In this document: piece by piece, positions 13,232 through 31,317 of the stretch | Numbering within the stretch: the stretch's first letter is position 1 | How the letters are laid out: every line of letters starts with the position of its first letter | NCBI GenBank assembly: GCA_004282875.1 | Contig: SHLT01000007.1 | Coordinates: 1-49,337 of the forward strand | Reading direction: 5' to 3' | Origin: Chromatiales bacterium | GTDB taxonomy: Bacteria; Pseudomonadota; Gammaproteobacteria; Steroidobacterales; Woeseiaceae | DNA: 49,337 bases | Notes under the pieces: model-generated | The model's database searches: none | What the model saw: only the letters and a program-made list of their open reading frames with translations | Told to the model about the DNA's origin: nothing | Made by a program: the position numbers and the translations under genes

Positions 13232-13240
13232 TGGGAGACT

Positions 13241-13537
13241 CTAGTAGGACGAGCTGGCGACCGGGACGACCTGGTAGAAGGTCTCTGACTTGCCGATCAT
13301 GCCGAGGTCGGTTCGGGCACGCTCCTCCGCCGCGTCGCGACCCTGCTTGAGATTGACCACTTCGGCATCGAGCGCCGCATTGCGTTCGCGCAGGGATTCA
13401 TTGAGTTCGCGCTGCTCGGCGACCGCCGTGCGCAGCTTGATGGTCTTGCGGTAGCCGTCGTCGGACAGCCAGAGCTCGGCCTGCAGACCGAGCCCGGCGA
13501 GTGCCAACATAATCAGTAACCAACGTGAACCGCCCAT
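13241..13537 (-). CDS. ftsB: Cell division protein FtsB
   Basis: A small bitopic inner-membrane protein of the FtsQLB divisome complex. A single N-terminal membrane helix (WLLIMLALAGLGLQAELW) is followed by a coiled coil (AVAEQRELNESLRERNAALDAEVVNLKQG) and the conserved C-terminal ARTDLGMIGKSETFYQVV. The 98-residue length and location just after eno are diagnostic. GGGGAA precedes the ATG at 13537. Confidence 0.93.
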   Translation of the reverse strand: MGGSRWLLIMLALAGLGLQAELWLSDDGYRKTIKLRTAVAEQRELNESLRERNAALDAEVVNLKQGRDAAEERARTDLGMIGKSETFYQVVPVASSSY

Positions 13538-13567
13538 TGCTTCCCCAAATCGGCTGCCGACGCGCTG

Positions 13568-14854
13568 CTATCCCAGCTTTACGGAAAACGCGTCACGAGC
13601 CGCATACCCTGCTGCTTCGCCCAGTTCCTCTTCGATGCGCAGCAGCTGGTTGTACTTGGCGATGCGGTCAGACCGGGACAGGGAGCCGGTCTTGATCTGC
13701 GTCGCCTGGGTACCGACCGCGATATCAGCAATCGTCGCATCCGACGTTTCGCCGGACCGGTGCGAGATCACCGCGCTGAACCCTGCGTCATCAGCCATAG
13801 TAATGGCATCAAGAGTTTCGCTTAAGGTACCGATTTGGTTGGGTTTTATCAAGATCGAATTACCGATCTTCTCGTCGATACCGCGTTGCAGGATCGAGGT
13901 ATTGGTCACGAATAGGTCATCACCCACGATCTGGACGCGGTCGCCCAGCTTCTCGGTCAGCAGGCGCCAGCCATCCCAGTCGCTCTCGTCCATGCCGTCC
14001 TCGATGGTGATGATCGGGTAGGCATCGGCCAACTCGGCGAGATAATCGGTGAATGCGGCCGCGTCGAACTGCCGCCCTTCCGACTCGAGGTCGTAGACAC
14101 CGTTCTTGTAGAATTCAGAGCTCGCAGCGTCGAGGCCCAGCAGGATATCGTCGCCGGCCTTGAATCCTGCCTTCTCGATGGCCGTCATGATCGTGTCGAG
14201 GGCCGCACGGTTTGACGGCAAGTCCGGCGCAAACCCGCCTTCATCGCCCACGGCCGTATTCAGTCCCTTGCCGCTCAATACACTCTTGAGGCTGTGGAAT
14301 ACCTCTGCGCCGTAGCGTAGGGCTTCCGCGAAATTCGGGGCGCCAACGGGCAGGATCATGAATTCCTGGATGTCGACGCTGTTGTCCGCGTGCGCGCCAC
14401 CGTTGATGATATTCATCATGGGCACCGGCATCATCGTGCTGCTGCCAAGGTGACGGAACAGTGACACACCTTTCGACGCCGCTTCCGCCTTGGCGGTTGC
14501 CAAAGAGATCGCCAACAGAGCATTGGCTCCCAGCTTGCCCTTGTTGTCGCTGCCATCGAGCGCAATCATGCAGTCGTCAAGCGCACGCTGGTTATCGAAG
14601 TCTTTGCCGAGCAATGCGTCGCGCAGCGCGCCATTCACATTCGCCACGGCCTTCCGCACTCCCTTGCCGAGGTAACGCGACTTGTCGCCGTCTCGCAGCT
14701 CGACGGCTTCCCGCGTGCCCGTCGAGGCGCCTGAGGGCACACCGGCCCGCGCGCTGCTGCCATCGGCCAGCGTCACATCTGCTTCAACAGTAGGGTTGCC
14801 GCGTGAGTCGAGAATTTCCCGACCACGAATGTCTGTAATTTTGATCATTGTCAT
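13568..14854 (-). CDS. eno: Enolase
   Basis: Converts 2-phosphoglycerate to phosphoenolpyruvate in glycolysis, and in enteric relatives is also a degradosome partner. The substrate loop and N terminus are visible ([23 protein letters not shown]). Further along are [10 protein letters not shown] near residue 205, the metal ligands in [21 protein letters not shown] and GDDLFVTN, the catalytic Lys in [13 protein letters not shown], and SHRSGET. Length 428 is typical. Two possible starts, 14854 and 14848, differ by two codons; the second has GGA at better spacing. It lies between kdsA and ftsB, the conserved order. Confidence 0.97.
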
Positions 14855-14862
14855 TCCATCTA

Positions 14863-15720
14863 TTAGGGCGAGGTGGGCACCCCGAGGCCGTACGCAGCCT
14901 CCTGGTAGCCACGTTGTTTGACGCTCGCGTCGATCGACATGAGCGTTTCGAGCAATTCTTTCATTTTGTCGAGGGGCCAGGCATTGGGACCATCACTGAG
15001 TGCGGTTGCCGGATCAGGATGCGTCTCCATGAAGAAGCCCGCCACACCCGCGGCGGCGGCAGAACGCGCCAGCACCGGGATAAACTCGCGCTTGCCACCG
15101 GACGCGGTGCCGAGACCGCCCGGCTGCTGCACCGAGTGCGTCGCATCGAATACCACGGGGGCGCCTGTGCCGCGCATGACAGCAAGGCTACGCATGTCCG
15201 ACACGAGATTGTTGTAGCCAAACGAGAAGCCGCGCTCGCACACCATGATGTTCTCGTTGCCCGTCGACTTGGCCTTGTCGACCACGTTTTGCATTTCCCA
15301 GGGCGACAGGAACTGCCCTTTCTTGATATTGACGGGCAGGCCGGTCGCCGCCGTGCGCAAAATGAAGTTCGTCTGTCGGCACAGGAATGCCGGTGTCTGC
15401 AGCACATCGACGACTTCGGCGACTTCGTCCATCGGCGTGTCTTCATGGACGTCGGTCAGCACCGGTAGCTGCAGCTGTTTCTTTACCTCGGCCAGGATGC
15501 GCAGGCCTTCCTCCATACCCGGGCCGCGGAAGCCGTCACGCGAGGAGCGGTTCGCCTTATCGAACGACGACTTGTAAATGAAAGGTATCCCAAGCTCGCT
15601 TGTGATTTCCTGCAACGTGCCGGCCGTGTCGAGCGTCATCTGCTCGCTTTCCACGACGCAGGTGCCTGCAATCAGGAAGATCGGCCGGTCGTTGCCCGCC
15701 TCGAAACCGCAGAGTTTCAT
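14863..15720 (-). CDS. kdsA: 3-deoxy-D-manno-octulosonate 8-phosphate synthase, metal-dependent type
   Basis: Condenses phosphoenolpyruvate with arabinose 5-phosphate to Kdo-8-phosphate for lipopolysaccharide. Family motifs are [14 protein letters not shown] near residue 47, LTDVHED near 92, and [11 protein letters not shown] near 193. The N-terminal [11 protein letters not shown] carries Cys at the position that is Asn in E. coli KdsA (GGMNVLES). Cys marks the metal-dependent class. It overlaps the end of pyrG by 4 nt (ATGA), implying coupling, and is followed 8 nt later by eno. Confidence 0.95.
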
Positions 15721-29863: not shown

Positions 29864-29883
29864 TGTATTTCCGTCCGTCCCGG

Positions 29884-31218
29884 TTAACCCAGGATTCTCG
29901 CAATATCGTTGTAGAACGCGAAACTCATCAACAAGAGTAACGCCAGAATGCCCACCTGCTGCCCAATAATCTGCGCCCGTTCAGTCAATGGACTGCCTTT
30001 AACCCATTCCGCAACCTGGTAGACAATCTGGCCTCCATCAAGCACCGGGATCGGCAAAAGATTAAGGATGCCGAGACTGATGCTGATAAGGATAAGAAAG
30101 TCGACAAAGTAACGCGGACCGCGCTCAGCCGACTCACCTGCAAATTGCGCGATATTGATCGGGCCGCTGATGTTCTTGATCGAGACGTCCCCTGTCAACA
30201 TCCGACCCAGCATTTGTACCGTGAAGACCGACTTGGCCCAGGTCTGCTCAATGGCCGAGACAAAGGACCGGCCCGGACCAATATTGTCCATCATGATGCC
30301 GACACCCAGGTATCCCGTCGTCACGCCATCGGTGGTACGTTCGCCCAGCGTCAGGTACACGGTGCGCCGCACCTGGTCGCGTACGTATTCAATAGCGACC
30401 CGCCGACCGGCCAGCGGCTCGACCGCCTCGACCAGATCCCCGAAATGCGCGATAGGCTGATTGTCGATCGTGACAATGCGGTCGCCTTCCAGCAGCCCGG
30501 CTTCCATGGCCGCGCCGTCTTCCTGCAAATTACCAATGACAGCCGGGGATGGACCCGGCGCAAATCCGAGCCCGTCAAACAACACGCCCGGCTCCGTTAG
30601 ACCGGCTGCCGCGTCCGCGGGAATTTCGATGACCGCCTCGCGCCGCTTCCCGAAAGCATCTTCGAGCGTCAGCGGAATGCGGCGCTCGGAGACCAGGCTG
30701 TCGAGGATACCGATCAGTGCGCCATCCCAGGCCCGCACGTCCTTGTCCGCGATGCGCACGATCTGTTCGCCTTCCCGGAGCCCGGCCGCCGCTGCGTAGG
30801 AATCCGGCGCAACTTCGCCGATCGTTGGCCGGTACGCAGGCACCCCGTCCATAAACAGGAACCAGAATGCGATTATTGCGAAGAAGAAGTTAAAGGCCGG
30901 ACCCGCCAGCAGCACGGCAATGCGCGCGGGTATCGGCCGCTGGTCGAATGCGCGTCCTTCATCGGCTGGATCGATGGGTCCTTCGCGGCTGTCGAGGAAC
31001 TTCACGTAGCCGCCGAGCGGAATCGATGCAATACAGTACTCGGTGTCGTCTGCGCCGGCACGACGAGACCAGATCGGCTTGCCAAAACCAATAGAGAACC
31101 GCAGCACCTTCATGCCGGCCCAGCGACCGACGATGTAATGCCCGAATTCGTGTACGGCAACCAGGACACTGATTGCCACAATAAATGCGAGGAGATTTAT
31201 CAGCGCACTACCCATCAA
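29884..31218 (-). CDS. rseP: RIP metalloprotease RseP (site-2 protease)
   Basis: An intramembrane zinc protease that cuts anti-sigma-E RseA in the envelope stress response and clears signal peptides. The zinc motif HEFGHYIVGRW is in the first membrane helix near residue 24. Two PDZ domains occupy the periplasmic loop (about 115-195 and 210-300). The third zinc ligand is in the LNLLPIPVLDGGQ motif near 393. Four membrane helices and length 444 fit. In other genomes dxr lies just upstream; here the gap to cdsA is 99 nt. Confidence 0.96.
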   Translation of the reverse strand: MMGSALINLLAFIVAISVLVAVHEFGHYIVGRWAGMKVLRFSIGFGKPIWSRRAGADDTEYCIASIPLGGYVKFLDSREGPIDPADEGRAFDQRPIPARIAVLLAGPAFNFFFAIIAFWFLFMDGVPAYRPTIGEVAPDSYAAAAGLREGEQIVRIADKDVRAWDGALIGILDSLVSERRIPLTLEDAFGKRREAVIEIPADAAAGLTEPGVLFDGLGFAPGPSPAVIGNLQEDGAAMEAGLLEGDRIVTIDNQPIAHFGDLVEAVEPLAGRRVAIEYVRDQVRRTVYLTLGERTTDGVTTGYLGVGIMMDNIGPGRSFVSAIEQTWAKSVFTVQMLGRMLTGDVSIKNISGPINIAQFAGESAERGPRYFVDFLILISISLGILNLLPIPVLDGGQIVYQVAEWVKGSPLTERAQIIGQQVGILALLLLMSFAFYNDIARILG

Positions 31219-31233
31219 CTGCTATCTCTCCAT

Positions 31234-31261
31234 GTTGACTGATGCCCGGGGCCACAGTTCC
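31234..31261 (-). promoter_or_regulatory. Weak sigma-E-like promoter before rseP
   Basis: On the minus strand GGAACTG (31261-31255), a 15-nt spacer and GTCAAC (31239-31234) resemble the sigma-E consensus GGAACTT-N15/16-TCnAA. rseP, bamA, skp and lpxD are sigma-E targets in enterics. The predicted start site would fall on the ribosome-binding site GGAGAG (31231-31226), which weakens the case. Confidence 0.22.
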
Positions 31262-31317
31262 CGCAGCGTTGCACACTACGCTATGTCGCACACAATGAAT
31301 GGTTCCTGAATAAGCCA

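Follow-up and report, generated by a model that had tools for sequence, protein, structure and literature searches.

Mevalonate genes, among them a fused HMG-CoA reductase-mevalonate kinase gene, in a Woeseiaceae genome with emptied methylerythritol phosphate sites

Contig SHLT01000007.1 of a marine Chromatiales bacterium (family Woeseiaceae; assembly GCA_004282875.1), analysed here over its whole 49,337 nucleotides (nt) and called the window, raises the question of where its host obtains isopentenyl diphosphate (IPP) and dimethylallyl diphosphate (DMAPP). An earlier note, made from the letters of the window, had claimed that dxr, ispD and ispF of the methylerythritol phosphate (MEP) pathway are gone from their conserved places while uppS is kept, and had proposed that this route was lost or replaced, perhaps by an acquired mevalonate pathway as in Legionella and Coxiella. 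The replacement is supported by the absence of any MEP enzyme over its cut-off and by a mevalonate gene cluster on another contig (C103) of the same genome. Very probably, the MEP genes have been lost and IPP and DMAPP are made by the classical mevalonate pathway, with 3-hydroxy-3-methylglutaryl coenzyme A (HMG-CoA) reductase (HMGR) and mevalonate kinase (MVK) joined in one protein. The assembly to which the window belongs, as contig C155, measures 3.39 Mb (210 contigs, 86.31% complete, 1.4% estimated contamination); the G-, L-, f- and g-numbers used below are working labels for genomes, loci, families and genera.

In Gammaproteobacteria dxr usually occupies one of two positions, between cdsA and rseP or, in the Enterobacteria-type arrangement, upstream of uppS. 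The coordinates of the open reading frames (ORFs) agree with the claimed spacings of 99 nt between cdsA and rseP and 9 nt between ftsB and truD (Table 1), and the absence of dxr, ispD and ispF from these sites was confirmed. Relaxed tblastn searches of the gaps for remnants of Dxr, IspD and IspF returned chance-level matches only (best E 0.16). As frr and uppS are separated by only 23 nt, the Enterobacteria-type position is also without dxr. Gene names in the window were checked by NCBIfam models, and the best names (TruD, FtsB, enolase, RseP, phosphatidate cytidylyltransferase, UppS and Frr) match those given earlier, including the retained uppS, with FtsB and CdsA scoring under the model cut-offs.

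The window itself shows the loss of three of the seven MEP genes, less than the "all" of the earlier note, and the remaining genes were covered by genome searches. Family searches for the seven MEP enzymes took in 60 genomes, namely the own one and 59 relatives, 37 of the 60 lying within the genus. Neither the own genome nor any of the 37 from the genus has a match over the cut-off for any of the seven; type II DXR (DXR-II) lay outside these searches, but IspG and IspH are lacking in any case. In the own genome nothing matches Dxr, IspF, IspG or IspH, and IspD, IspE and Dxs have sub-cut-off matches only (best E 1.1e-4, 9.7e-4 and 4.1e-9, respectively). When sub-cut-off matches are included, IspD and Dxs are matched in 60/60 genomes and IspE in 34/60; since control genomes that have no match over the cut-off show them too, such matches probably represent related kinases, nucleotidyltransferases and transketolase-like proteins. 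Positives among the 60 genomes number 10 for Dxr, 11 for IspG, 10 for IspF, 10 for IspH, 11 for IspE, 9 for IspD and 11 for Dxs (the last three counted over the cut-off), and all fall in the same eleven genomes outside the genus (G037, G039, G042, G044, G045, G046, G049, G052, G057, G058 and G059). The intact dxr, ispD and ispF that the earlier note had suggested looking for elsewhere in the genome were thus not found, and the loss of the route that it proposed extends to IspG, IspH, IspE and Dxs.

The mevalonate genes predicted by the earlier note were found as a candidate set in one cluster. On C103, genes for diphosphomevalonate decarboxylase (MDD), a phosphomevalonate kinase (PMK) candidate, the HMGR-MVK fusion and Idi-1 follow one another, with HMG-CoA synthase (HMGS) convergent and ispA divergent. 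The fused protein, P0001, contains HMGR at residues 13-390 (TIGR00532, 367.1 bits vs cut-off 259.95) and MVK at residues 443-699 (TIGR00549, 240.1 bits vs cut-off 163.05). Its HMGR is of class II and aligns best with Pseudomonas-type enzymes; the closest solved structures, 1qax, 9v7y and 6dio, align near full length, and four named HMGR residues are kept in the alignment to 1qax. MDD (P0002; TIGR01240, 245.5 bits vs cut-off 171.35) and the type 1 IPP isomerase (P0004; TIGR02150, 139.3 bits vs cut-off 105.8) are likewise over their cut-offs. HMGS (P0005) is truncated at its N terminus by the end of the contig; it clears Pfam PF01154 and PF08540 narrowly (29.5 vs 25 and 25.1) and stays below the equivalog cut-offs of NCBIfam. 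Scans for promoters and terminators in the mevalonate operon and in the emptied dxr site gave nothing exceeding shuffles.

P0003 is a probable PMK because of its first fold rank, its motif, its place in the operon and a fused homologue in family f8 (156.9 bits). Its best model is TIGR01220 at 78.4 bits, under the cut-off of 165.7, and its fold model is nearest to 3k17, with mevalonate kinases, heptokinase and galactokinases also scoring high. The named PMK 3gon ties with mevalonate kinases and heptokinase in the fold comparison, which slightly lowers the confidence in the mevalonate reading as a whole.

With these genes, a putative thiolase and HMGS would make HMG-CoA, and the N-terminal domain of the fusion would reduce it to mevalonate, which the C-terminal domain of the fusion would then phosphorylate. 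PMK and MDD would then complete IPP, Idi-1 would make DMAPP, and IspA and UppS would extend the chains. Joining the two domains would fix the ratio of two successive steps and may allow mevalonate to be handed on locally. We infer these enzyme activities, the flux to IPP and the stoichiometric or local-transfer role of the fusion.

A second HMGR, of class I (eukaryote-like), is present on contig C149 of the own genome (P0007; L022 8288-9490; TIGR00533, 349.3 bits, under the cut-off of 441.8). Immediately upstream of it is an ORF that we take to resemble wax ester synthase/diacylglycerol acyltransferase (L022 6888-9490 covers both).

The two emptied sites were compared in the window and 80 further loci (81 sequences), gap sizes being distances between best tblastn matches. 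The cdsA-rseP gap was measurable in 37 of the 81, and in 29 of these it is 1225-1345 nt long and holds a dxr match. The eight short gaps belong to the window and L026 (153 nt), L028 (218 nt), a Neptunomonas metagenome-assembled genome (MAG) contig, L092 (75 nt), and four Enterobacterales loci (L048, L049, L050 and L073; 65-76 nt), in which dxr presumably lies upstream of uppS. The eno-truD gap, measurable in 12/81, spans 1545-1784 nt and holds ispD and ispF in seven; the five short ones are in the window (339 nt), L026 (339 nt), L028 (402 nt), L080 (499 nt) and L092 (419 nt). Both sites are therefore empty in two further Woeseiaceae contigs, L026 (Woeseiaceae MAG) and L028 (Woeseia sp. MAG), to which the window genome has DnaE identities of 97%, the best among named records, and 69%, respectively. 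The same emptied sites in other assemblies show that the gaps of the window are no assembly artefact.

MEP-using relatives in the order have dxr between cdsA and rseP in 3/3 fetched stretches (L211, L213, L215) and ispD-ispF between ftsB and truD in 2/2 (L212, L214), and a single contig carries dxr and ispF at a distance of about 20-25 kb in G037, G044, G045, G046, G052, G057, G058 and G059. Since these members carry the genes at these very sites, the ancestral arrangement is still visible in the order, and the window represents a derived, emptied state. In two MEP-using relatives examined (L216, L217) ispA adjoins dxs; in Woeseiaceae it adjoins the mevalonate cluster.

Outside Woeseiaceae, dxr, ispD and ispF are missing from both sites of L092, and ispD-ispF from the one site of L080 (Oceanospirillaceae MAG contig). 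These contigs suggest further MEP losses in Gammaproteobacteria.

The cluster is widespread around the window genome. Among 30 genus loci with the fused gene, PMK is directly upstream in 28 and HMGS downstream in 26; these loci are short and the rest may be cut. All eight further family genera fetched (L191-L198) match HMGS, HMGR-MVK, PMK and MDD, seven also match Idi and six ispA; L191 is short and stops at MDD, and neither ispA nor Idi is matched in L192. In an order sample of 396 genomes and 72 genera, P0001 matches 199 genomes and 41 genera, and Dxr matches 184 genomes. Cross-tabulated, 195 genomes match P0001 only, 180 Dxr only, four both and 17 neither; the table was compared by eye, and 177 P0001 and 192 Dxr negatives were taken as negative without an entry. 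P0001 is matched in 72/73 genus and 102/107 family genomes, Dxr in 0/73 and 0/107. A P0001 match alone is no proof of fusion, which is established only if a single frame matches both domains. A P0001 match and Dxr are nearly mutually exclusive across the order sample, and the MEP-to-mevalonate swap seems common to about half of the order's examined species. The four genomes with both (G237, G342, G346, G392) all belong to family f10, and their P0001 E-values, 7.7e-111 to 1.4e-24, are like those of single HMGRs or weaker. Family f4 is mixed, with Dxr in G039 and a P0001 match in G053, G067 and G079, which points to at least one switch between the routes within it, if the family label is right.

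In a class sample of 369 genomes, 57 match P0001. Among the matches listed, both domains are covered outside the order in G512, G627 and G723 (f133), G434 (f55), and G564 and G671 (f176); G574 (f179), which shows the second half of an apparently fused frame truncated at the contig's edge, was not counted. Many other lineages of the class have a free-standing class II HMGR, and in five of these (G435, G467, G486, G508, G523) the contig that bears it also has a kinase match of its own. In family f8 (G056, G043) PMK, HMGR and MVK are joined in one frame, 1131 aa long in G056 and reaching the stretch edge in G043; HMGR and MVK are over their cut-offs and the PMK part is just under (156.9 and 147 vs 165.7 bits). 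Among plasmid records, 58 match some part of P0001 and none covers 80% of it in a single place, so the fusion was not seen on any plasmid.

In a 64-row HMGR tree a branch (96/88; 97% of 200 bootstrap trees) separates the 47 fused rows from all others; the free-standing HMGRs of f66, f180 and f185 are nearest to them, and the own fused gene is sister to that of G030 from the same genus (100/99). The tree kept 12 of 29 genus rows and left out the cut loci L019, L138, L186 and L188, the duplicates L016, L021, L023, L024 and L025, and the class I HMGR loci. The best tree does not recover the fused rows of the family (f1) as a clade, as the long-branched L191 falls outside; in constraint tests (p-AU, the p value of the approximately unbiased test) the family held as one clade was not rejected (0.481), and one clade of all the order's fused HMGRs was (0.0191). 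We take these results to mean that the fusion arose once, was inherited inside the family and passed from order to order. An operon with the fusion would have been present in the family ancestor, complete MEP loss would have come afterwards, and the fused gene, if not the whole operon, would also have moved between gammaproteobacterial lineages. With slightly better than even confidence, the fused HMGR-MVK, extended to PMK-HMGR-MVK in one family, may be taken as a single gammaproteobacterial invention that links successive mevalonate steps, moves with the operon between orders and has repeatedly displaced the MEP pathway as a whole, so that one order is now divided roughly in half between two routes that exclude each other.

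The opposite history, in which mevalonate is ancestral to the whole order and its MEP-using families regained their genes, would suit the spread of matches over 41 of the 72 genera. It is nevertheless highly improbable, because regain would hardly restore dxr and ispD-ispF to the sites that the fetched MEP-using members share with Pseudomonas and other Gammaproteobacteria, and because the order's fused HMGRs resist being held as one clade and those of the family do not.

Slighter still is the chance that the MEP genes were lost, the precursors are scavenged, and the mevalonate-like genes serve mevalonate degradation or wax-ester or terpenoid metabolism. The HMGR model matched by P0001 is named degradative, the nearest unfused HMGRs (f66, f180, f185) are single genes, and the class I HMGR adjoins the wax-ester-synthase-like ORF. 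All the same, the cluster holds the steps after HMGR and Idi beside ispA, within the order sample matches to the fused protein go together with a lack of Dxr, a reductase joined to MVK would fit the synthetic direction, and free-living genomes, mostly of 2-5 Mb, are unlikely to be IPP auxotrophs.

Two explanations were rejected on the genome-wide MEP searches, the order sample and the gap measurements. Relocation of intact dxr, ispD and ispF within the genome has practically no probability: genes could be missing from an assembly of this completeness, but none of the 37 genus genomes has Dxr, IspG, IspF or IspH, none has IspE, IspD or Dxs over the cut-off, and Dxr is absent from all 107 family genomes of the order sample. 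Just as negligible is an assembly or binning artefact, by which the genes were dropped from the MAG or the mevalonate contig is foreign, since, for all the 210 contigs and the 1.4% estimated contamination, L026 and L028 have the same empty sites, PMK and HMGS flank the fused gene in most genus loci, the cluster recurs in the eight other family genera, and the own fused gene is sister to that of a genome of the same genus.

Bacteria in which mevalonate genes, often in an operon, have replaced the MEP pathway are known. According to a 2026 review, mevalonate is used by 12.03% of 4,249 species, and the Legionella route is treated there as incomplete, the analysed species being described as having no phosphomevalonate kinase (PmvK) and most as having no HMG-CoA synthase (HmgS) (PMC13001223). 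Words starting with "Woese" are absent from the main text of that paper. The likeness to Legionella drawn by the earlier note holds in outline, as a gammaproteobacterial lineage described as having a mevalonate route, and fails in detail, as PMK and HMGS candidates are present here, in contrast to Legionella as described in that text, and HMGR is fused to MVK.

The classical pathway of Gram-positive cocci, which have no MEP pathway and a type 2 isomerase, shares with the present one HMGS, class II HMGR, MVK, a PMK (here a candidate), MDD and an isomerase, the clustering of the genes and the absence of MEP; here, however, HMGR and MVK form one protein, the isomerase is of type 1 and the HMGR is Pseudomonas-type. 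Enterococcal MvaE, a thiolase-HMGR fusion, is also a natural fusion of HMGR with another pathway enzyme. Its partner is the upstream thiolase at the N terminus, whereas here it is the next enzyme, MVK, at the C terminus. The Pseudomonas class II HMGRs closest to the N-terminal half of P0001 (1qax, 9v7y, 6dio) are free-standing proteins of 423-429 aa, whereas the present chain runs on into the kinase. Among the papers listed by searches of a literature that lacks most subscription journals, none appeared to report an HMGR-MVK fusion or the order's route split; the fusion is likely new to the literature.

Woeseiaceae are described as abundant in marine sediments. Under the proposed replacement they should not be sensitive to fosmidomycin and should depend on mevalonate enzymes. 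The replacement also bears on the isotope signatures of their lipids, because the two routes label differently, as well as on the rule of thumb assigning the MEP pathway to free-living Gammaproteobacteria. Because related species stand on both sides of the switch and the old sites are legible, the cost, order and number of replacements become directly studiable, and the fused enzymes offer a natural test of whether joining HMGR and MVK changes flux or regulation.

Table 1. Coordinates of the emptied sites and their borders in the window, and of the triple fusion in family f8.
Feature	Position	Strand	Remarks
truD	12212..13231	-	Downstream border of empty ispD-ispF site; NCBIfam TIGR00094, 174.6 bits, cut-off 172.2
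Empty ispD-ispF site	13232..13240		9 nt separating ftsB and truD
ftsB	13241..13537	-	Upstream border of empty ispD-ispF site; NCBIfam NF002058, 87.6 bits, under cut-off 101
rseP	29884..31218	-	Downstream border of empty dxr site; NCBIfam TIGR00054, 331 bits, cut-off 147.55
Empty dxr site	31219..31317		99 nt separating cdsA and rseP
cdsA	31318..32103	-	Upstream border of empty dxr site; NCBIfam NF008635, 185.5 bits, under cut-off 385
uppS	32097..32837	-	Kept consumer of isoprenoid diphosphates; NCBIfam TIGR00055, 281.4 bits, cut-off 109.55
frr-uppS gap	32838..32860		23 nt, ORF coordinates
PMK-HMGR-MVK triple fusion	L017 328-3723; L018 400-4122		Both f8 genomes fetched

The claim that every neighbouring gene keeps its order did not survive, as fabZ is also gone from between lpxD and lpxA. 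These two genes overlap by 4 nt at window 25905-25908, the only place examined for fabZ. A short lpxD-lpxA gap was found in three of 60 measurable sequences (window, L026 and L027), and L028 keeps 469 nt. Between pcm (5583-6254) and truD, a stretch of about 6 kb (6255-12211) contains mostly small ORFs, two of which, at 10330-10989 and 11036-11518, are lipoprotein-like.

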